From Myxococcus stipitatus (lineage in GTDB: Bacteria; Myxococcota; Myxococcia; Myxococcales; Myxococcaceae), in the NCBI RefSeq assembly GCF_037414475.1, contig NZ_CP147913.1:8194501-8258500 (forward strand): DNA of 64,000 nt. The letters are read 5' to 3'. Both the position numbers and the translations under genes were made by a program. Below, piece by piece: positions 3,942 through 60,463 of this stretch. The first letter of the stretch is position 1. Each line of letters starts with the position of its first letter. Under the pieces are notes generated by a model. That model was not told the DNA's origin. It did not search any database and saw nothing but the letters and a program-made list of their open reading frames with translations.

Positions 3942-4762
3942 GGGTGGGGTTGGCCATCGTCGCCTTGCTGCTGGCGGTGACGCCGGCGCAGGCGCAGCAG
4001 GAGAATCCGGCGGCCCGCACTGTCATGGCGCACCTGTCGAAGGGTGCGCGTGCGGCGCGCGTGGGCGACTGGGTGACGTACCGGTTCGACGGTGGTGCGG
4101 GCGGCAATCGCGTCTACTACTGGCGCATGGCCGTGGTGGGCGAGGAGAAGGACAAGGCCGGCCGGGACTCCGTGTGGGTGGAGATGGAGGCGGGGACGCA
4201 TCCGGCGATGAAGGCGCCCCTCATGCAGATGCGGATGCTGGTGGCCCGTGAGGGCGAGCAGATCCGCTACGACGCCATCTCCCGGCTCTACATCGGCGGC
4301 CCCACGGATCGCCCGCAGGAGTACTCGCAAGAGGCCCTGGACCACGTCCTCAAGCAGATGGAGGAGCAGGGCCGCGAGGACAAGATGCCGGACCCCGACG
4401 ACGAGAAGACCCCCATGCCCGTGGGGCTCAAGCCCGTGCTACGCTCGAGCAAGGAGATGCGAGTGATGACGCTTGCGGGGACCGTGTCGGCGGTGTCCGT
4501 GGAAGTGGTCGTGAAGAAGACCGTCGTCAAGCGGATGTGGCTCAGCCGCGAGATTCCGCTGATGCAGTTGGCGAAGATGGAGATTCCAGGCATCGCCCAC
4601 TCGATGGAAGTGGCGGAGTACGGTATCGACGCCAAGCCCCGCATGCTGCTTCCCGCCCCATCGGCCCCCAAGGTCCAGCTGGAGTATGCTGACCGTATCT
4701 TCCCTGACCTTCCCGGGACGGAAGCTCCCGACGAGTCAAGCCCTTCGGAGACCCATCCATGA
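3938..4762 (+). CDS. Exported protein of unknown function in the Tad locus
   Basis: 274 residues, starting at the ATG that overlaps the previous stop (ATGA). The first 20 residues form a signal peptide with an A-Q-A cleavage site, so the protein is periplasmic or outer-membrane associated. No catalytic motif is seen. The mature part has a beta-rich look, with a V-G-D-W-V-T-Y-R-F segment just after the signal and a second W-V-E-M-E-A-G strand, as in small periplasmic beta-sandwich proteins. The C-terminus is Pro/Ser-rich. It ends in another four-base overlap with the Flp-type pilin gene, so the group is co-translated. Function is unknown. Confidence 0.7.
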   Translation: MRVGLAIVALLLAVTPAQAQQENPAARTVMAHLSKGARAARVGDWVTYRFDGGAGGNRVYYWRMAVVGEEKDKAGRDSVWVEMEAGTHPAMKAPLMQMRMLVAREGEQIRYDAISRLYIGGPTDRPQEYSQEALDHVLKQMEEQGREDKMPDPDDEKTPMPVGLKPVLRSSKEMRVMTLAGTVSAVSVEVVVKKTVVKRMWLSREIPLMQLAKMEIPGIAHSMEVAEYGIDAKPRMLLPAPSAPKVQLEYADRIFPDLPGTEAPDESSPSETHP

Positions 4763-4986
4763 CCATCCCCAAGACGCAGCAGCGCCTCCGCGCCTCCCAG
4801 CGTGGGCAGGCCATGGTCGAATACTCCATGCTGAACTGGATCCTCGTCGTCGCGCTGGTCGTCGGCGCGTCGGTCAAGGTCCGTTGGTCCGATGACGTCC
4901 AGTCGAACGTCATCGACCTGTTCATGCGCTCGTACCAGATCTACTACGACTCCTTTTACTTCGTGCTGAACCTGCCGTTCCCGTGA
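4759..4986 (+). CDS. Flp-type pilin candidate
   Basis: Only 75 residues. Residues 16-22 read G-Q-A-M-V-E-Y, an exact fit to the Flp pilin processing site (Gly, four residues, Glu-Tyr), followed by a hydrophobic helix at residues 24-38. Flp pilins are the major fibre subunit of Tad pili; they are cleaved after the Gly by a TadV/CpaA-type peptidase and polymerise through the helix. The mature product would be about 59 residues, within the normal range. The tail is rich in aromatic residues (Y-Q-I-Y-Y-D-S-F-Y-F). Start and stop overlap the flanking genes (ATGA, GTGA). It could instead be a minor TadE/F-like pseudopilin; a second flp gene may exist elsewhere. Confidence 0.7.
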   Translation: MTIPKTQQRLRASQRGQAMVEYSMLNWILVVALVVGASVKVRWSDDVQSNVIDLFMRSYQIYYDSFYFVLNLPFP

Positions 4987-6769: not shown

Positions 6770-7585
6770 ATGCTGAAGGGCAAGACTCCGCTCGTCGTTG
6801 CGCTCGTGCTCGGCCTTCTGGCCGGCGTCATCGCGTATTCCGCCATCAAGAAGAAGGAATCCGATGTTCGCCGTGGCTGGAACCTGGTCCCCGTTGTCGT
6901 CGCGGCCCAGGACATTCCCGAAGGAACTGTCATCACCTTCGAGATGATTTCCCAGCGCTCGGTGCCTGAGCAGTTCGTCACCTCGTCGGTGGTCCGTCCC
7001 GACTCCGCGTCCTACGTGGTGAACCAGAAGGTCCTCGTGGCGCTGCAGGCGGGTGATCCGCTGCTGTGGAGCCAGTTCGAGACCACCAAGGCGGCCGAAC
7101 GGCTGTCCTCGAAGGTCCAGAAGAAGATGCGCGCGATGACCATCGACGCGAAGAACGCCACCGCCGTGGGCGGCTGGATTCGCCCGAACGACCACGTGGA
7201 CATCATCGGCACGTTCCGCGACCCGCAGACGGACGAGAACGTCGGCGTCACGCTGCTGCAGAACATCATCGTGGTGGCCACGGGCAAGATCACCGGTACC
7301 ACCAACGTGAACCTCATCCCGGAGAACCAGCGCGAGTACAACAACGTCTCGCTGATGGTGCTGCCGGAAGAGGCCGAAATCCTGGTGCTGGCGACAGAGC
7401 TCGGCTCGCTGACGCTCTCGCTGCGCAACGAGGACGACGTGGACCTCATCGAGGAGCGTGGCCGCGCCACCATCAGCACGCTGCTGTCGGGTGAGCGCAC
7501 CCGCGTGCTGGAGAAGAAGCGGCAGGAGATCATCCAGATCATCAAGGGTGGTGGCGAGAAGGCCGCCGCCGCTGGCGCTCAGTAG
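6770..7585 (+). CDS. cpaB: CpaB/RcpC Flp pilus-assembly protein
   Basis: 271 residues. One N-terminal membrane helix (residues 7-24) is followed by a SAF domain (about 40-110) with the typical V-V-V-A-A-Q-D-I-P-E-G-T-V-I entry. The rest is the CpaB C-terminal region, including an R-A-M-T-I-D segment and a D-H-V-D-I-I-G strand. CpaB/RcpC is a periplasmic protein of the Tad system that works with the outer-membrane secretin and may contact cell-wall polymer through the SAF domain. Length and layout are normal. It is first in the second Tad transcript, with tadB only 40 bases downstream; in most Tad loci a secretin and ATPase genes intervene. Confidence 0.85.
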   Translation: MLKGKTPLVVALVLGLLAGVIAYSAIKKKESDVRRGWNLVPVVVAAQDIPEGTVITFEMISQRSVPEQFVTSSVVRPDSASYVVNQKVLVALQAGDPLLWSQFETTKAAERLSSKVQKKMRAMTIDAKNATAVGGWIRPNDHVDIIGTFRDPQTDENVGVTLLQNIIVVATGKITGTTNVNLIPENQREYNNVSLMVLPEEAEILVLATELGSLTLSLRNEDDVDLIEERGRATISTLLSGERTRVLEKKRQEIIQIIKGGGEKAAAAGAQ

Positions 7586-7625: not shown

Positions 7626-8471
7626 ATGCTTGCTGGTATTGTCCTCCTCCTCGTCACCGGCTCGGTCTTCTTCTTCAGCCTGGTGATCTTCAGCGTCCTG
7701 TCGAAGGCGTATGAGCAGTACCAGGAGCGCTACGTCGCCAAGTCGATGAACGACTTGAGCGACATGTTCCTCTTCATCGATGCGCGCCAGATGTTGGTCC
7801 TCAACATCGCGTGCATGTGCTTGCTGGGGATTCTCTCGTACATCATCTTCAACCCCATCCTGGCGGTGGTGGCCACGGTGTTCGGCTTCTTCCTGCCGAT
7901 GCTGCTGGTGAAGCACTACCGCAAGCGGCGCATCAAGAAGTTCAACGTCCAGTTGGTGGATGCGCTGCAGGCCATGGCGAACGCGTTCAAGGCCGGTCTG
8001 ACCTTCCCTCAGGCCATCGAGCACGTGGCGCGCGAGGCGATGGCGCCGCTGTCTCAGGAGTTCGGCCTGTTCGTGAAGGAAGTGAAGCTGGGCGTGCCGC
8101 TGGAGGAGGCGCTCATCAACATGGGGCGCCGCGTGGGCAGCGACGACCTGGAGCTGGTGGTGGTGTCCACGAACATCGCGCGCCAGCTGGGCGGCAACAT
8201 GGCGGAGATGTTCGAGACCATCTCCACCGTGATTCGCGAGCGCTTCCGGCTCGAGGGAAAGATCGACGCGCTCACCTCGCAGGGCAAGCTGCAGGGGTGG
8301 ATTGTCGCGGCCATGCCGGCGGTGCTGGGCATGGTGCTCAACTACATGCGGCCGGACCTGATGGAGCCCATGATGAACCACTTCTTCGGGTGGATCCTCG
8401 TGGTGCTGATCGCCATCATGGAAGTGATGGGCATCCTCATCATCCGGCGCATCGTCAACATCGATATTTGA
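7626..8471 (+). CDS. tadB: TadB, inner-membrane platform protein (type II secretion F family)
   Basis: 281 residues. Membrane helices at about residues 3-28, 58-78 and 80-98 are followed by the cytoplasmic T2SSF domain (about 115-235; L-V-D-A-L-Q-A-M-A-N-A-F-K-A-G marks its start) and a C-terminal hydrophobic region. TadB and TadC together form the inner-membrane platform on which the TadA ATPase drives pilus assembly. tadC starts ten bases after the stop. The domain order matches the family. Confidence 0.85.
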   Translation: MLAGIVLLLVTGSVFFFSLVIFSVLSKAYEQYQERYVAKSMNDLSDMFLFIDARQMLVLNIACMCLLGILSYIIFNPILAVVATVFGFFLPMLLVKHYRKRRIKKFNVQLVDALQAMANAFKAGLTFPQAIEHVAREAMAPLSQEFGLFVKEVKLGVPLEEALINMGRRVGSDDLELVVVSTNIARQLGGNMAEMFETISTVIRERFRLEGKIDALTSQGKLQGWIVAAMPAVLGMVLNYMRPDLMEPMMNHFFGWILVVLIAIMEVMGILIIRRIVNIDI

Positions 8472-8481
8472 GGAGTGGCCG

Positions 8482-9366
8482 GTGGATCTCCTGACCCAAG
8501 TGTTGGTCGGCAGCTCGGCGCTGCTCTTCGCCGGAGCGGTGGGCTTTCTCGGACTCGGTCTGTACCAGGTGCTCTTCGAGCGCTTCCTGTCGGAGGTGCG
8601 TGACGAGTCCCAGGGCGGCATGAAGGGCTTCGGCTCGGTGGCCATCCGCCGGCTGGGGGCCTTCAACCGCCGGTTCATCTGGCCCAGCTACGAGGCGAAG
8701 TCGCGCCGCAACCTCATCAAGGCGGGCGAGCCCCAGGGCTACAAGCCCGAGGACATGATGGCGCTGCAGGAAGTGAGCGCCGTCGTGGGCCTGCTGATGG
8801 GCCTCTTCATCCTCAACGGCGTGGGTCAGAACCTGGCCTGGTCGTTGGTGTTCCTGCTCTTCGGAATGTACTACCCGCTCTTGTGGCTGAACGACCAGGT
8901 GAAGAAGCGCCACCTGCTCATCAGCCGCGCGCTCCCGTACAACCTGGACCTGCTGACGTTGTCGGTGGAGGCGGGTCTGGACTTCACCGCCGCGCTGGCG
9001 AAGGTGGTGGAGAAGGGCAAGGCGGGCCCGCTTCGCGAGGAGCTGCAGCTGGTGCTCAAGCAGCTCAAGATGGGCAAGACGCGCGAAGAGGGGCTCAAGA
9101 GCATGATTGTCCGCGTGGACCTGCCCGCGCTGACGACGTTCGTCACCGCGCTCATCCAGGCGGACAAGATGGGAACGAGCCTGGGCAAGGTGCTGCGCAT
9201 TCAGTCCACGCAGATGCGCATCGACCGCACCCAGCGCGCGGAGAAGCTGGCCGGCGAGGCGCCGGTGAAGATGCTCTTCCCGCTCATCGCCTGCATCTTC
9301 CCGACGGTGTTCATGGTGCTCTTTGGGCCCATCGTGTTCCAGTTCTTCTTCGGTGAGCTCGCGTAG
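8482..9366 (+). CDS. tadC: TadC, inner-membrane platform protein (type II secretion F family)
   Basis: 294 residues from GTG 8482, with GAGGAGTGGCC just upstream. There is an N-terminal helix (residues 8-28), a helix pair near residues 100-135, a T2SSF domain at about 150-270 (Y-N-L-D-L-L-T-L-S-V-E-A-G-L-D-F is the family signature) and a terminal hydrophobic segment. It is the usual partner of TadB. The next gene, an FHA protein, starts inside or just after its end, so the signalling protein seems translationally tied to the platform. Confidence 0.85.
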   Translation: MDLLTQVLVGSSALLFAGAVGFLGLGLYQVLFERFLSEVRDESQGGMKGFGSVAIRRLGAFNRRFIWPSYEAKSRRNLIKAGEPQGYKPEDMMALQEVSAVVGLLMGLFILNGVGQNLAWSLVFLLFGMYYPLLWLNDQVKKRHLLISRALPYNLDLLTLSVEAGLDFTAALAKVVEKGKAGPLREELQLVLKQLKMGKTREEGLKSMIVRVDLPALTTFVTALIQADKMGTSLGKVLRIQSTQMRIDRTQRAEKLAGEAPVKMLFPLIACIFPTVFMVLFGPIVFQFFFGELA

Positions 9367-11338
9367 GGGGAGTCCTCTGCCCATCCTCCTCACCATCACC
9401 CAGGGGCTCCAGGCGGGACGGGAGCTCGTCTTCGAGCAGGCCGAGGTGAAGGTCGGCCGCACCTCGGAGAACGATGTGGTGCTGCACGACCATGGTGTCT
9501 CCCGGCACCACGCGCGCATCGTCATGCGCGGCGGGCAGTACTTCGCCGAAGACGTCGGCAGCGCGAACGGCACGTTGCTCAACGGTCGTCGCCTGACTGG
9601 CGAGCAGCTCCTGCGCGATGGCGACCGGATTGGCCTGGGGCCCGTGGAGTTCACCTTCGTCTGGGTCCCTCCCGACGGTGATGAAGACGCCACGCGCCCC
9701 ATCCGGCGCGTGCCTCGCGACGCGACTCCCTCCGTGAGCCTGGACCCCCGCGGCCAGGAGTTTCTCCCCACCGGAGAGCTCCCCGCCGTGACGCCCGTGG
9801 CCCCTCGCTCCGGGCCGGGAGTGGCAGGGCCTTCGCCCTCGGCGGGTCCGCCGGGCGGCCTCAAGCCTTCCGCTGCGTTCGTTCCGCCCGGACCGCCCGT
9901 GCTCGAGTCACACCGCGAGGAACGCACCGAGGTTGGACTGTCCACCGTGGTGGGGGCTTCTGGTGCGCCGGTTTTCCCTCCGCTCCCCGATGCCATGCTC
10001 GAGGAGCGCACGGAGGTGGCGCTGCCCATCGTCGCGGCCAGGCTCGTTCCGGCGATGGCGTCGCTGGCCGAAGAGCACACGGAGGTCGGCGTCATCACGG
10101 GGGGCAAGCCGTCCGTGGTGCCTCCGCAGCCCCCCGAGCGGGCGAATGTGTCCGCTCCGCCAGGCATTCCTCCCGGTTTCCCCGCCGAAGAGCCTGAAGA
10201 GCGCACCGAGTTGGCGTTGCCCACGCTCGCGGGTGTCCTCAGCCCCTTGGATGAGCCGACCGCGGTGGACGCTGACGAGTCCACACGGCGCATCACGCGG
10301 GTGCCCGTGACGGCGGCCCTCGCCCCGCCAGTGCCTGCCCCGCAGCTCGCGGCCGCCCCGACCCATGTGGCGTCCGCGCCCCCGACGGGCGGGCCGACCG
10401 CGGCGGACCGGGCGCGGGAGCGCCGGGCGCTCGCTCAGACTCGGGGTGGGCAGTTCCTGCTCTGGTGGCGGGGGCTGTCGGTCCCCGGCAAGCTCCTGGC
10501 CAGCCTGACGCTGCTCTGCGTCGTGGCGGCGGCTGGCGGCGTGGCCCAGGTGTACCTGGCGGGTGGGGCGGGATTGCGCTCGGGTGGGGCGGAGCCGACG
10601 ACCCTGGGGGTTGATGCCACACCGGATTCCTTCGGCCTGGGCGAGGGGGTGCGATGGGAGCACTCCGACCAGAAGTCCTTCGAGTTCCAGTTCGTGGCCC
10701 CCACCCGTGCGGTGGCCCTGCTGCGTTACCAGGCCAGCGATATCTCGAAGGAGGAGGTGGCCCTCATCCTCAACGGGGTGAACCTGGGTTGGGTCCCACC
10801 GGATACCACCACCACCGCGGAGCGGGAGCTGGAGCTCATCCTCCCTGTCGCTACCCTCAAGCGCGGCGACCTCAACACCGTCTCGTTCGACAATGTCCGC
10901 AACCCTCCGGGTCAGGAGACCTGGCGGGTATGGAACCTGCGGGTGGACATCATCCCGGTGCCGGAGCTCCCCCCCGAGCAGCTCCTGGCCCAGGCCCGGG
11001 AGTACGCGTCAGCAGGGCGGCGGTTCTTCGATGCCAGGGGCGTGGGCTCCGAGAACCTGTTCCGCTCCTGGCAGCAGTTCCGCGCGGCCTGGTTGACCTT
11101 GGAGGCGCTGGAGACCAAGCCGGAGCTCTACGAGGACGTGCGGTTCCACCTGTCGCAGGCATCCGGCGAGCTGGACCACCAATGTGCCCAGCTCATGCTG
11201 GAATTCCAGCAGAGTGTGCAGTTCCGGAGCGCGAGGAAGGCCCGGGCGGCGCTGCAAGAGATCAGCAGACGCTTCCCTACCACCGAGCATCGCTGCCACA
11301 ATCTGGCCAAGGAAAAGGCGTTCGAGCACGAGCTCTGA
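9353..11338 (+). CDS. FHA-domain transmembrane protein with E-E-R-T-E-V repeats
   Basis: 661 residues if GTG 9353 is used; a CTG at 9377, better spaced from a GGGGGAG box, is an alternative. Residues 10-105 form an FHA domain with its hallmark G-R (35-36), S-R-H-H (50-53) and N-G-T (82-84). FHA domains bind phospho-threonine peptides. A Pro/Ala-rich linker (about 120-370) contains four spaced copies of [E]-E-[RH]-T-E-[VL] (near residues 185, 216, 239 and 281), each followed by a short hydrophobic patch. One membrane helix lies at about 380-402 and the last 260 residues would be periplasmic, with helical TPR-like pieces. It may connect Ser/Thr kinase signalling to the Tad platform; that is inference. 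Confidence 0.75.
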   Translation: MSSRRGSPLPILLTITQGLQAGRELVFEQAEVKVGRTSENDVVLHDHGVSRHHARIVMRGGQYFAEDVGSANGTLLNGRRLTGEQLLRDGDRIGLGPVEFTFVWVPPDGDEDATRPIRRVPRDATPSVSLDPRGQEFLPTGELPAVTPVAPRSGPGVAGPSPSAGPPGGLKPSAAFVPPGPPVLESHREERTEVGLSTVVGASGAPVFPPLPDAMLEERTEVALPIVAARLVPAMASLAEEHTEVGVITGGKPSVVPPQPPERANVSAPPGIPPGFPAEEPEERTELALPTLAGVLSPLDEPTAVDADESTRRITRVPVTAALAPPVPAPQLAAAPTHVASAPPTGGPTAADRARERRALAQTRGGQFLLWWRGLSVPGKLLASLTLLCVVAAAGGVAQVYLAGGAGLRSGGAEPTTLGVDATPDSFGLGEGVRWEHSDQKSFEFQFVAPTRAVALLRYQASDISKEEVALILNGVNLGWVPPDTTTTAERELELILPVATLKRGDLNTVSFDNVRNPPGQETWRVWNLRVDIIPVPELPPEQLLAQAREYASAGRRFFDARGVGSENLFRSWQQFRAAWLTLEALETKPELYEDVRFHLSQASGELDHQCAQLMLEFQQSVQFRSARKARAALQEISRRFPTTEHRCHNLAKEKAFEHEL

Positions 11339-11373: not shown

Positions 11374-13107
11374 ATGTCCAACGGTTCCCCTCCTGCTCGT
11401 CGCAGGCCTCCTTCCGGGACGCCCTCGGGAGGGGCTGGAGCTCGCCCAGCGGCCCGTCGGCCGTCGCCCTCGGCTCGGCCCGCTCCGGTCGCTGCGTCTC
11501 CGCGTCTCGTCTGTGTCGCAGGGCCCAAGTCGGGTGAGGAGTTCTCGCTGGAGGATGGCGAGTACGTCATCGGCCGCGCCACGGACAACCCCATCTGCAT
11601 CCCCGACACCTCCGTGTCCCGCAAGCACGTCATGGTGCGCAAGTCGGGCGGTGGCTGGACGGTGAGTGACCTGGGGTCCGGGAACGGAACGCTGGTCAAC
11701 GGCGACGCCATTGGGGACGAGACGCCCCTGGCCAACGGCGACGTCATCACCCTGGGCGACACCGAGCTGCGCTTCGAGGATGTGGCCAACTCCACGAACG
11801 TGGTGGCGGCCCCCCCGCGCAGCCGGCCGGGTGCTCCTCCCGCGGGCCGTGGAGGCGCGCCTGCCCGTCCTCCTCCGCGTGTCGAGGGAGGCCGGGTCCG
11901 CAGCGCGCGTGCGACGGCCAATGCTCCCGCGGACCCCGAGGCCGAGCGCAAGAAGCTGCGCTTGAAGCTGCTGGCCGGCGGCGTGGTCGTGGTCCTCCTT
12001 GGGGGGCTTGGAGTCCTCAAGATGAGGGCCGCGAACCAGGAGGCCCAGGCGACCGCCGAGCGGGGCGTCATGGAGGCCGAGCGCAAGTCGCTGAGCAAGA
12101 CCTTCCAGGACGCGAAGAACCTGGTGCGTGAAGGCAAGTGGGTGGAGGCCAAGGCCCTGCTGGAGGACTTGCAGAGCAGGGCGCCGGATTACCCGGGCGT
12201 GAAGGACTACCTCGACCATGCCCAGCGCGAGATTCCCGTTCAAGAGCGGCTGTCGGAGGCGCGCGAGGCGCTCGCCAAGAGCGAGCTGGGAAAGGCCGCC
12301 GCGGCGCTGTCCAAGGCAGGAGAGAGCCAGTTCCTCTACGAGCAGGTGAACGCGACGAAGCGCGAGGTGGTGGAGCTCGCGGACAAGCGCTCCCGCGAGG
12401 CGCGCGCGTCGTTGGACGGCGGCCAGTTGGACATGGCGAAGATCATCACGGATGACATCCTGAAGGCCTTCCCGGAGCACCGCGACGCCAAGCTCATCAA
12501 CGAGGAGGCTGTGCGGGCCATCGCCGTTCGCGACGCGCCCAAGCCTGTCATCACCGGTCCCGCGCCCAAGCCCTGGGAGCCCGCGGTGGAGCGCTTCCGC
12601 GACGGCGACATGTCTGGCGCGGTGTCCATCCTCAACGCGTGCATGGCGAAGACGGCGCAGTGCAAGAAGCTGCTCGCGCAGATGACGGAGTTCAGCAACC
12701 TCTACAAGCGCATCGAGGACCTGGACGCCAAGGGGCTGTTGAAGCTGCTCGCGCTGGACAAGGACATCACCGAGGGGCGCACGAGCAAGATGGCTCGCAA
12801 CGCGGGAACCCGCGCGGCCACCATCTTCTACAAGAGCGCCAGTGGGGCGAAGGCCGCCGGACAGTGGGCTCGCGCCATGGAGTACGCGCGGCGCACGCTG
12901 CAGGCGGACCCGGGACACGCGGGTGCCACGAACATCATCAGCGAGATGAAGTCGAAGGCGAAGGACCTCTACCTGCAGGCCTACTCCCTGAAGGACGGCA
13001 GCCCCGAGGACGCGCTGCCCAAGTTCAAGGACGTGGTGGCCATGACGCCTCCCGAGGACGAGTACCACGAGAAGGCGAAGACCTGGGTCGAGAAGCTCTC
13101 GCGATGA
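11374..13107 (+). CDS. FHA-domain transmembrane protein with helical C-terminal region
   Basis: 577 residues. After a Pro/Arg-rich N-terminus comes an FHA domain (about 43-137) with G-R (67-68), S-R-K-H (82-85) and N-G-T (104-106). A basic, Pro-rich linker leads to one membrane helix (about 196-215). The remaining 360 residues are extracytoplasmic, helical and TPR-like (repeated A-x-x-x-L-x-x-G patterns, for example the W-V-E-A-K-A-L-L-E-D-L segment). It is 35 bases behind the first FHA gene and shares its architecture, so the two are probably paralogous partners. Its stop overlaps the xseA start (ATGA). Confidence 0.75.
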   Translation: MSNGSPPARRRPPSGTPSGGAGARPAARRPSPSARPAPVAASPRLVCVAGPKSGEEFSLEDGEYVIGRATDNPICIPDTSVSRKHVMVRKSGGGWTVSDLGSGNGTLVNGDAIGDETPLANGDVITLGDTELRFEDVANSTNVVAAPPRSRPGAPPAGRGGAPARPPPRVEGGRVRSARATANAPADPEAERKKLRLKLLAGGVVVVLLGGLGVLKMRAANQEAQATAERGVMEAERKSLSKTFQDAKNLVREGKWVEAKALLEDLQSRAPDYPGVKDYLDHAQREIPVQERLSEAREALAKSELGKAAAALSKAGESQFLYEQVNATKREVVELADKRSREARASLDGGQLDMAKIITDDILKAFPEHRDAKLINEEAVRAIAVRDAPKPVITGPAPKPWEPAVERFRDGDMSGAVSILNACMAKTAQCKKLLAQMTEFSNLYKRIEDLDAKGLLKLLALDKDITEGRTSKMARNAGTRAATIFYKSASGAKAAGQWARAMEYARRTLQADPGHAGATNIISEMKSKAKDLYLQAYSLKDGSPEDALPKFKDVVAMTPPEDEYHEKAKTWVEKLSR

Positions 13108-58621: not shown

Positions 58622-60463
58622 TCATTCAGAGACGTCGGGAGGCAACATCTGTCGGCACCGGTTGATGCCGCGCTGTGCGTCAGCGAGCTGCGGATAGTCT
58701 TTCTTCAGGGCGCGGTAGAGGAGGATGGCGTCATGGCAGTTGCCTTCGTCCTCACGGCCGCGCGCGCGCGCCAGCCGCTTGGAGGCATCCTCGATTCGGG
58801 TTCCCAGCTCCGCGAGCTTGGGCTCGACGACGTCCAATCCCAGGCTCCGCGCGAGGGCCAGCTTCTCCGAGGCCTTGGACAGCTCGCCATCGTTGAAGTC
58901 GTCGCCAATCTCGATGAGTCGATCCAGTGCCTTCTCCTTGCGTCGCTCCAGCGCGGCGGCATCCGCATCGGCCGCGGCGGCCGTGGGGGCAGGGGCCTTG
59001 GTTTCCTCCACGGGTCTGGGAGGAGGCTCCGCGACTGGCTTGGGGCTCTCCGCGACAGGCGGGGGACTTGGATTGTCTCGGGTGCCACTTCGGACAGTCA
59101 CCACCCCGAGCCCCGCGACAATCAACACGCCCGCGATGCTCAAGCCCACCCCCCAGCCCACGCGGCCGCGTGACGCGGGCGCATAGGGCGACATCGCGTG
59201 CGCGGTCTTGTCGAACCCGTCGCGCGCGGCCTGCGCCGGCAATGGCGTCACGGGAAGCCGCTCGGTCCTGTCGATGACCGGCGTCTGCGTCTCGTGCGAG
59301 GGGGACTCGGGTGTCCCCGGTGCTGGCTGAGCCAACGGGAGGGGCGTCATGCGCCCCGTGTTGATGCGGCCCGCGTCGGTGGGCGTCGCCCCCGAGGCCC
59401 CCCGCAACATCGTGTCCTCGGTGCCATCGCCGTAGATGAGCGTGCCCGAGTGGACATTGCCATTCGTGCCAGGCTTCACCACGGGATTGACGCCGCTGAT
59501 GGGCGGCCGCCCGATGAGCGTGGGCAGCGCGTTGCTCAGGTCCGAGGCGAACGCTTCCATCGTCGCGTAGCGCTCCACGCGCTTCTTCGCGGTGGCCTTC
59601 TGGATGACCGCGTCGAGCGCGGGCAGGTCCAGCTCCGCCGTTACGTCTCCCAGCCGGGGCGTGGGCTGATTCACCTGCCGCTGCATGATGTCCGCGACGC
59701 TGTTGCCGTCGAACGGCTGCACGCCCGTGAGCAGCTCGAAGAGCACCACGCCCACCGCGTAGATATCCGCGCGGGCATCCACGTCCTGGCCCAGCGCCTG
59801 CTCGGGCGACATGTATCGGGGCGTCCCCGCCACCGCGCCCTGGGCCGTGAGTCGCGTGGCTCCGTCGGCGATGCGCGCGATGCCGAAGTCCAGCACCTTC
59901 ACGTGCCAGCCGCGCAGGCCCTGCCGCACCATGATGTTCTCGGGCTTCAGGTCCCGGTGCACCACGCCCCGCGCGTGCGCGTACGCGAGCACGTCCGCCA
60001 CCTGAAGGATGATGTCCCCGGCCTCATGGGCGCTCATCCGGCCCACGTTCGCGAGCAGGCGCTTGAGGTCATCTCCCTCCACGTACTCCATGGAGATGTA
60101 GAGGTTGCCCTCCTCGTCCTGCCCGAAGTCGTGCAGGTTCACCGCGTTGGGGTGGCCCACCCGCGCGTAGCTCTTGGCCTCGTTGAGGAAGCGGCGGGTG
60201 ACGTCCAGGTCCAGCGACAGGCCGCTGTGCAGGAACTTCATCGCGACCTGCTGCCCGATGCCCACCTGCTCCGCCAGGTACACCGAGCCCATGCCGCCCT
60301 GGCCCAGCTTCTTGACGATGCGATACCGCCCCGCCACGGTGCGGCCCAGCATCCGGTCCACTCGCTGAGTCACCGTGAGCAGCTCCGTGCCCCCACAGCC
60401 AGGGCACGCGCCGTTCCAGGTGTCGTGCTGCGCCTCGCATCGCTGGCAGATGAAGAGGGCCAT
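58622..60463 (-). CDS. Zinc-ribbon, transmembrane Ser/Thr protein kinase
   Basis: 613 residues. C6-x-x-C9 and C20-x-x-C23 form an N-terminal zinc ribbon. The Hanks-type kinase domain (about 45-320) is complete: G-Q-G-G-M-G-S-V-Y (54-62), catalytic Lys76 in V-A-M-K, H-R-D-L-K-P-E-N near 165, D-F-G near 188 and A-G-T-P-R-Y-M-S-P-E. A Pro/Thr-rich juxtamembrane region, one helix (about 447-470) and a Pro/Ala-rich plus helical periplasmic tail follow. Likely a membrane kinase that senses envelope conditions. FHA proteins at 9353 and 11374 could be among readers of its class, without direct evidence. Confidence 0.88.
   Translation of the reverse strand: MALFICQRCEAQHDTWNGACPGCGGTELLTVTQRVDRMLGRTVAGRYRIVKKLGQGGMGSVYLAEQVGIGQQVAMKFLHSGLSLDLDVTRRFLNEAKSYARVGHPNAVNLHDFGQDEEGNLYISMEYVEGDDLKRLLANVGRMSAHEAGDIILQVADVLAYAHARGVVHRDLKPENIMVRQGLRGWHVKVLDFGIARIADGATRLTAQGAVAGTPRYMSPEQALGQDVDARADIYAVGVVLFELLTGVQPFDGNSVADIMQRQVNQPTPRLGDVTAELDLPALDAVIQKATAKKRVERYATMEAFASDLSNALPTLIGRPPISGVNPVVKPGTNGNVHSGTLIYGDGTEDTMLRGASGATPTDAGRINTGRMTPLPLAQPAPGTPESPSHETQTPVIDRTERLPVTPLPAQAARDGFDKTAHAMSPYAPASRGRVGWGVGLSIAGVLIVAGLGVVTVRSGTRDNPSPPPVAESPKPVAEPPPRPVEETKAPAPTAAAADADAAALERRKEKALDRLIEIGDDFNDGELSKASEKLALARSLGLDVVEPKLAELGTRIEDASKRLARARGREDEGNCHDAILLYRALKKDYPQLADAQRGINRCRQMLPPDVSE

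Follow-up and report, generated by a model that had tools for sequence, protein, structure and literature searches.

The Kil machine, the Tad-like prey-killing system of Myxococcus, is assembled where prey is touched, and a protein that may take part in this assembly is encoded by a gene within the 64,000-nucleotide stretch of Myxococcus stipitatus DNA analysed here (assembly GCF_037414475.1, contig NZ_CP147913.1, positions 8,194,501 to 8,258,500 of the forward strand; henceforth the window). This gene, designated FHA1, encodes an FHA protein whose disordered linker harbours an array of threonines preceded by paired acidic residues. We tentatively propose, at slightly less than even confidence, that FHA1 is an inner-membrane phosphothreonine scaffold of tunable valency in the Kil machine. 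Where prey is touched Kil proteins gather in foci, and killing needs genes of both kil clusters (Seef et al. 2021, PMC8460266). The same paper notes an over-representation of FHA domains, suggests FHA signalling in Kil by analogy to type VI secretion, and refers, as regards Kil assembly, to FHA proteins and a yet unknown signalling cascade further upstream. According to a 2023 review several Kil genes encode FHA domains, KilD being an essential FHA protein (PMC10433427), while in the main text of a 2025 Kil paper the terms “FHA”, “phosphorylat” and “kinase” are all absent (PMC12075869). FHA signalling in Kil was therefore already proposed in 2021. What is new here is the acid-threonine array; neither the array nor the conservation of its threonines nor the fast change of its copy number is described in the consulted passages of the Kil literature (PMC8460266, PMC12075869, PMC10433427).

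An acid-threonine array in the linker of FHA1

The features of FHA1, all on the forward strand and given in window positions, are as follows.

9353..11338, +, FHA1, bitopic FHA protein of kil cluster II, 661 residues (open reading frame, Pfam, model, gene order)
9383..9673, +, FHA domain with phosphothreonine-binding residues R36, S50, R51 and N72
9674..10390, +, disordered linker (predicted local distance difference test score, pLDDT, mostly below 50; 73-1007 residues in orthologs)
9680..9709, +, site adjoining the FHA domain, DEDATRPIRR, T114 (24 of 25 orthologs have Thr, one has Ser)
9917..9934, +, repeat 1, EERTEV, T192
10001..10018, +, repeat 2, EERTEV, T220
10070..10087, +, repeat 3, EEHTEV, T243
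10133..10150, +, decayed near-repeat PERANV (PERANVS), Ala264 (LERTDV in genomes G013, G014 and G008)
10196..10213, +, repeat 4, EERTEL, T285
10250..10294, +, two further sites, DEPTAV (LDEPTAVD, T303) and DESTRRI (ADESTRRI, T311)
10481..10558, +, predicted transmembrane helix (model helix 367-392; basic on its N-terminal side in the translation)
10595..11335, +, C-terminal domain, a beta-sandwich resembling carbohydrate-binding modules (CBM) plus a helical bundle, probably periplasmic (model, structure comparison)

Seven threonines of FHA1 (T114, T192, T220, T243, T285, T303 and T311) share the core [DE][DE]xT. The initial annotation of this gene had described four E-E-[RH]-T-E-[VL] repeats spaced by 25 to 45 residues. 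All four are present; their threonines T192, T220, T243 and T285, however, lie 28, 23 and 42 residues apart, and three sites (T114, T303 and T311) had been missed, so that the observation was sound and underestimated. The repeats are genuine and far exceed what chance would yield. Within the linker threonine occupies seven of the eight non-acidic positions which follow [DE][DE]x (hypergeometric P=3.8e-8), and over the whole protein the enrichment of [DE][DE]xT (P=1.2e-6) is the strongest, i.e. has the lowest P-value, among 1605 sampled proteins of the same genome. This non-random sample spans 2.31 Mb, or 22% of the genome; it was built around the FHA and kinase genes, nearly all of which it includes, and their neighbours, the genes having been called by a codon-usage script instead of being taken from annotation (for 2 of 113 kinase and 2 of 49 FHA matches there is no called gene). 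In the DNA the copies do not stand in tandem; the best family comprises 54 nucleotides at 67-72% identity, and the output of Tandem Repeats Finder contains no array of FHA1 repeats. Since they are no more alike than this and non-tandem, the copies look old, their core having been kept at the protein level. A Thr-Arg motif directly following the FHA domain, as present at T114, is not general among the FHA proteins of this genome.

The preference for threonine extends to the orthologs, which were collected from 25 genomes labelled as one genus, that of M. stipitatus among them (loci L003-L006 derive from the same genomes as G004, G022, G011 and G019 and were dropped from the ortholog counts). 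In the 25 linkers, 170 non-acidic positions after two acids are filled by Thr in 92 cases, by Ser in 11 and by other residues in 67. Pooled over seven representatives, 37 Thr are located in sites and 90 outside, compared with 4 and 158 Ser, respectively; taken singly, three of the seven (G004, G002 and G019) show no significant preference, and the P-values are overstated because repeats within one protein as well as orthologs are related to one another.

The sequence surroundings of the sites are distinctive, too. A hydrophobic residue at +2 or +3 is observed in 39 of 50 unique site contexts versus 69 of 198 contexts of other threonines, and Glu is found at -2 in 43 of the 50. The FHA self-tails of the DgcB type feature Glu at -2 and hydrophobic residues at -3, +2 and +3, the ligand being LEKpTSIV (Meek et al., PMC6733907). 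Ortholog sites such as EERTSML and EERTDVLL come close to this ligand, and the EERTEVA/G sites of the window protein, with a small residue at +3, constitute a poorer fit. Glu at -2 combined with hydrophobic residues at both +2 and +3 occurs in 8 of the 50 sites as against 1 of the 198 other contexts, with none of the eight contributed by the window protein. In Mycobacterium tuberculosis, Thr sites lost upon PknA (pknA) depletion favour Pro at -1 and +2, acidic residues at -1 and between -3 and -6, a hydrophobic residue at +3 and a basic one at +4 (PMC7164672); DEDATRPIRR matches most features of this logo. The site contexts of FHA1 may thus be said to resemble published FHA self-ligands and a mycobacterial kinase logo, by analogy and as a resemblance only.

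The FHA domain, which the initial annotation had rightly recognised, is clearly identified at residues 32-96 (Pfam 71.3 bits, cut-off 20.7), and PF16697, the model of the YscD cytoplasmic domain, reaches 67.2 bits over the same stretch (cut-off 33.2). R36, S50, R51 and N72 are invariant in 25 of 25 aligned FHA rows, an alignment that includes two non-orthologs and leaves out G010 and G016, in whose FHA domains the phosphothreonine-site residues are, by eye, also present. Judged from its sequence the FHA domain is canonical and retains the phosphothreonine-binding residues, binding itself being predicted. In the AlphaFold2 model (based on 25 sequences) the FHA domain is folded while residues 99-332 nearly all exhibit a pLDDT below 50; there follow the long helix 367-392 and then a beta-sandwich with helices. 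As the flank preceding the helix is basic, the FHA domain is probably cytoplasmic and the C-terminus periplasmic.

Modelled alone, the C-terminal domain attains a mean pLDDT of 88.9. The sandwich comes closest to CBM-like domains, led by BcsB, a subunit of cellulose synthase (Z 9.3, root-mean-square deviation 3.3, 109 residues aligned), a Z-score which is little above the 7-8 usually reached as best value by models without a clear match. SctD is absent among the VIA-align matches listed for this domain, and comparison of its profile with Protein Data Bank (PDB) sequences returned nothing convincing (best E 0.18). When the whole model is compared with the PDB, FHA domains are listed, headed by GarA and OdhI, with DgcB from rank 14 on. 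The NCBIfam models TIGR03354 (TagH of type VI secretion; 49 bits, cut-off 120.25) and NF033760 (gliding protein GltG; 37.7 bits, cut-off 650) both remain below their cut-offs. The anatomy of FHA1, as read from its sequence and predicted model, is accordingly shown to consist of an FHA domain, a disordered linker bearing the sites, a helix and a C-terminal domain, in a fixed place after the platform genes. That a reader and its candidate ligands reside on one chain, as originally supposed, is well supported as anatomy by the canonical FHA domain and the [DE][DE]xT array.

A paralog of identical architecture and 39% sequence identity is present in the same genome (2780335-2781930; L044:6339-7928, minus). 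It is located away from Tad genes, adjoins genes which on reading resemble WYL-type regulators, and is devoid of the repeats.

Threonine conservation and linker drift across the genus

The FHA1 gene is present in all 25 genomes, with linkers of 73 to 1007 residues and 1 to 12 sites. Long-linker orthologs are found in the window protein's own group and in the pairs G003/G005, G004/G012 and G010/G016. The initial annotation predicted that the repeat threonines are kept while the linker drifts, and this expectation is borne out in two comparisons. In the quartet G000/G013/G014/G008, whose linkers are 76% identical pairwise, the motif Thr columns are invariant in 7 of 7 cases compared with 4 of 15 other Thr columns (P=0.002); the codons of these motif threonines differ, synonymously, in 11 of 42 row pairs. 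The near-repeat LERTDV/PERANV was tallied with the other threonines in this test because its second acid is missing. In G010/G016, 10 of 14 site Thr columns are kept versus 13 of 86 others (P=4e-5). Two close pairs do not discriminate: in G003/G005 6 of 6 site and 7 of 10 other threonines are kept, in G004/G012 4 of 5 and 10 of 12, the fifth site column being Thr/Ser. Once G010/G016 are set aside, the remaining eight long-linker rows cannot be aligned unambiguously, and sites are gained and lost among them. Genus-wide, the predicted constancy does not hold, as the sites vary freely.

The only near-universal site is the position of T114, occupied by Thr in 24 of the 25 orthologs. This FHA-adjoining site reads D[EV]DATRPIRR or DEEATRPIRR in 23 orthologs, and 21 retain the acid pair. 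In G010 and G016 the acid pair is lost and the residue is Thr and Ser, respectively; their linkers contain 12 and 11 sites.

The linkers of G010 and G016 (L038, L039) extend over about 1000 residues, resulting in proteins of nearly 1400 residues whose other domains are normal; the first platform protein encoded at these loci is 97.5-97.9% identical to that of the window. In G004 and G012 (L042, L043) the linkers comprise near-perfect tandem units, KRPLVAPVAPRPIPVLADDFPALAPPSG, without Thr sites, with KRPLVAPVAP units among the Thr-free duplications of G004. Since these tandem units bear no Thr sites, spacer length appears free to grow.

The kil locus, candidate kinases and related systems

Gene content and order identify the FHA1 locus as kil cluster II, part of the Tad system with which Myxococcus kills prey upon contact. 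The window encodes CpaB, two platform proteins, TadE-type pilins and the FHA proteins, arranged as in that cluster. The neighbours of FHA1 are listed below.

6770-7585, +, KilB/CpaB (profile matches)
7626-8471 and 8482-9366, +, two T2SSF platform proteins (profile matches)
11374..13107, +, FHA2, second FHA protein of the cluster, with an FHA domain and weak TPR matches (Pfam, gene order)

FHA1 starts with GTG and overlaps the 3' end of the preceding platform gene. The placement next to the Tad platform, correctly noted before, is fixed: the order KilB, TadB-like, TadC-like, FHA1 is kept in 14 of 14 flanked loci from 13 genomes (L003 and L042 being one locus). FHA2 and xseA follow FHA1 in 13 of them, with the contig of the remaining one ending first, and the first platform protein is 96-99% identical across all 14. 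No profile identified the small pilin KilK (window 4759-4986 is without Pfam match), and PADLOC gave no result. The genome of M. stipitatus also possesses kil cluster I, comprising an FHA-ATPase (T2SSE plus FHA, 604 residues), Secretin, a Peptidase_A24 prepilin peptidase and two more FHA proteins of 286 and 744 residues, the latter with a double FHA. The Kil system of M. xanthus is likewise divided: its cluster II (MXAN_4648-4661) contains CpaB, two platform proteins, TadE-type pilins and FHA proteins, and its cluster I, with FHA-ATPase, secretin, peptidase and FHA proteins, is located elsewhere in the genome. The M. xanthus ortholog of FHA1 is to be expected among the FHA genes that close MXAN_4648-4661. 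The KilF-like FHA-ATPase at L080:8325-10139 (minus) includes a strongly acidic stretch with spaced Tyr residues (EEAYDDQGDEGYPEEEPYEDEPPYEEEE) and no Thr array.

With 113 Pkinase and 49 FHA matches the genome is rich in potential writers and readers. Two Hanks-type kinases emerged as leads, both found after the fact and to be regarded as candidate partners only. One of them (68387-70948, minus; L116) is situated beyond glyS on the strand of kilF, at a distance of about 12 kb from the latter, and carries no Thr array. Besides M. stipitatus this spacing of about 12 kb is kept in all 10 genus genomes searched (out of 24); the genus is largely collinear around kilF, which itself is 93-100% identical. 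Outside the genus a KilF homolog is present in 11 of 12 genomes searched, and matches to the kinase are at best 43-46% identical, or less in score.

The other lead (4035412-4037811, minus; L143) is a tail-anchored kinase with a C-terminal membrane anchor and a hypervariable linker, whose gene is not near Kil. It exhibits EDERTQ repeats and EDEPTAV, amounting to five [DE][DE]xT sites (P=0.016 in its own genome), and is besides FHA1 the sole protein with at least five sites among the 1605 sampled. Its best matches in the other 24 genomes (L156-L166, L206-L218) contain 0-11 sites, e.g. DDEPTHA, EDEPTAV and DDESTAV. A co-variation of its copy number with that of FHA1 is not significant (Spearman 0.25, P=0.24 over 23 genomes; 0.35, P=0.09 over 24 genomes when G010 is added by hand, uncorrected for relatedness). 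G016, whose kinase locus is cut and bears at least 10 sites, was left out. The window itself encodes a further Hanks-type kinase (58622-60463, minus; Pkinase 170.8 bits) about 47 kb from FHA1, to which nothing ties it.

Several known systems combine some of these elements. In M. tuberculosis, the ABC transporter Rv1747 carries two FHA domains as well as a disordered linker, and its phosphorylation by PknF promotes condensates (PMC9312465). It shares with FHA1 the combination of FHA and disordered linker on one chain of a membrane protein, and differs as an ABC transporter with two FHA domains from FHA1, which has one FHA domain and up to 12 candidate sites and belongs to a Tad machine. In Bdellovibrio DgcB, GarA and OdhI the FHA domain binds a Thr site on its own chain, and LEKpTSIV resembles the ortholog sites LERTDVL and EERTSML; there, a single site is N-terminal, whereas in FHA1 the array is C-terminal to the FHA domain and combined with a membrane anchor. 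The Fha proteins of type VI secretion (Fha1, TagH) are Thr-phosphorylated scaffolds with a dedicated kinase, PpkA (PMC3953482), and Acidovorax Fha forms condensates (PMC12607579). As proposed for FHA1, they are FHA scaffolds of a contact-dependent killing machine; unlike it, they are acted on by PpkA and serve type VI secretion, not Tad, with the TagH model staying below its cut-off on FHA1.

YscD/SctD of type III secretion is built from an FHA-like cytoplasmic domain, one membrane helix and a periplasmic part. The predicted layout of FHA1 follows this succession, and FHA1 matches PF16697 above cut-off; in contrast, its C-terminal part, where YscD/SctD has ring-building domains, models as a CBM-like sandwich with helices.

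Weighing a proposed phosphothreonine scaffold against its rivals

These features suggest, yet do not prove, a phosphorylation-driven clustering of the machine at prey contact. In such a scheme a Hanks-type kinase would, upon contact with prey, phosphorylate several linker threonines of FHA1. The resulting phosphothreonines would be bound in trans by the FHA domains of neighbouring FHA1 molecules, and sister Kil proteins, namely the KilF ATPase, the double-FHA protein and FHA2, might read them as well, whereby platform and ATPase would be drawn into one cluster. The near-universal T114 would constitute the basic switch, with the extra sites, quickly gained and lost in evolution, setting the valency. 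An extended version, which we consider unlikely, unites FHA1 and the tail-anchored array kinase in one circuit: either arm, once phosphorylated, would recruit FHA domains and condense the platform at the contact site as a multivalent “sticker” array, each species tuning the threshold via the number of sites.

Several observations weigh against a scaffold of this kind. Across the genus the sites range in number from 1 to 12 and shift freely in position, and 15 of the 25 orthologs form a short-linker branch (support 83/79 in a tree whose root is unsure) with linkers of 73-174 residues and 1-4 sites, which renders it unlikely that the EERTEV repeats are needed for basic Kil function. In M. stipitatus itself the threonine of the near-repeat has been lost to Ala264. 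A hydrophobic residue at +3, the pocket position in DgcB, is found in 21 of the 50 site contexts only. Furthermore, [DE][DE]xT apparently does not serve as a general code: in a first sample of 1104 proteins from this genome it was unenriched both in FHA proteins (23 occurrences against an expectation of 20.4, FHA1 itself accounting for 7) and in kinases (34 against 38.6). None of the 113 Pkinase matches is located inside either Kil cluster. Outside the genus no match to the kilF-linked kinase is found near any of the 11 KilF homologs on the listed contigs, several of which are short, so that the link between kilF and this kinase may reflect plain collinearity within the genus. KilD foci appear without a functional Kil system (PMC8460266), which places the trigger upstream, and, as a warning, a phosphosite mutant of Acidovorax Fha still made foci (PMC12607579). 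Among the literature matches listed there is no phosphorylation or binding work on Kil FHA proteins.

It is conceivable, though in our opinion doubtful, that T114 alone is the phospho-switch and acts as an in-cis self-ligand, the linker repeats representing old duplications of acid-Thr sequence with little or a merely tuning function. The conservation of T114 and its acid pair (24 and 21 of 25), the retention of the FHA1 gene throughout the short-linker branch including genomes with one site, and the precedents of GarA, OdhI and DgcB are in line with this. In the quartet, however, the repeat threonines are kept as well as T114 amid a drifting linker, and G010 and G016 lost the acid pair there yet carry 12 and 11 linker sites. 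Rather unlikely, too, are docking motifs which bind a partner without phosphorylation, e.g. by beta-strand addition, with Thr favoured for its strand propensity. Disordered arms with docking motifs are common, the composition of EERTEVAL is strand-like, and, as far as the alignments indicate, it is the whole short motif that is conserved and not Thr alone, as any binding motif would be; this, too, counts against the scaffold (identity over quartet row pairs is 42/42 for Thr, 75/84 at -3/-2 and 117/126 at +1 to +3). The contexts EERTEV, EESTAML, EDDQTLPP, DEPTFIKV and EEKTAS, on the other hand, share little beyond acid-acid-x-Thr, and since they differ this widely, a kinase together with an FHA reader suits them better than one fixed docking groove.

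If the sites are phosphorylated, the phosphates might still exert their effect through charge, serve as a sink, or be read by FHA proteins outside Kil. The 49 FHA and 113 kinase matches offer many possible readers and writers for this, but an intact FHA domain on FHA1's own chain would be within reach of the sites, and we regard this option as very unlikely. Neutral drift in a spacer rich in Pro and Ala, its Thr pattern arising by chance, would account for the unconstrained linker length of 73-1007 residues, the Thr-free duplications in some genomes and the two close pairs lacking excess conservation of site threonines. It is nevertheless hardly credible in view of the P-value of 3.8e-8 in the window protein, the conservation in two comparisons and the preference of Thr over Ser. 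The initial proposal of self-recognition and clustering at the platform is hence supported in part: conservation, Thr over Ser, site contexts, phosphothreonine-binding residues and the Kil locus speak for it, genus-wide variation and the short-linker forms against it.

The proposed scaffold bears on how Kil machines are assembled where prey is touched, and it is directly testable because the residues are named (T114 and the linker array), 25 orthologs offer between 1 and 12 sites, and there are two candidate kinases. If true, FHA1 would give Tad machines a parallel to the phospho-FHA assembly of type VI secretion and would illustrate how fast valency can evolve beside a nearly invariant machine.

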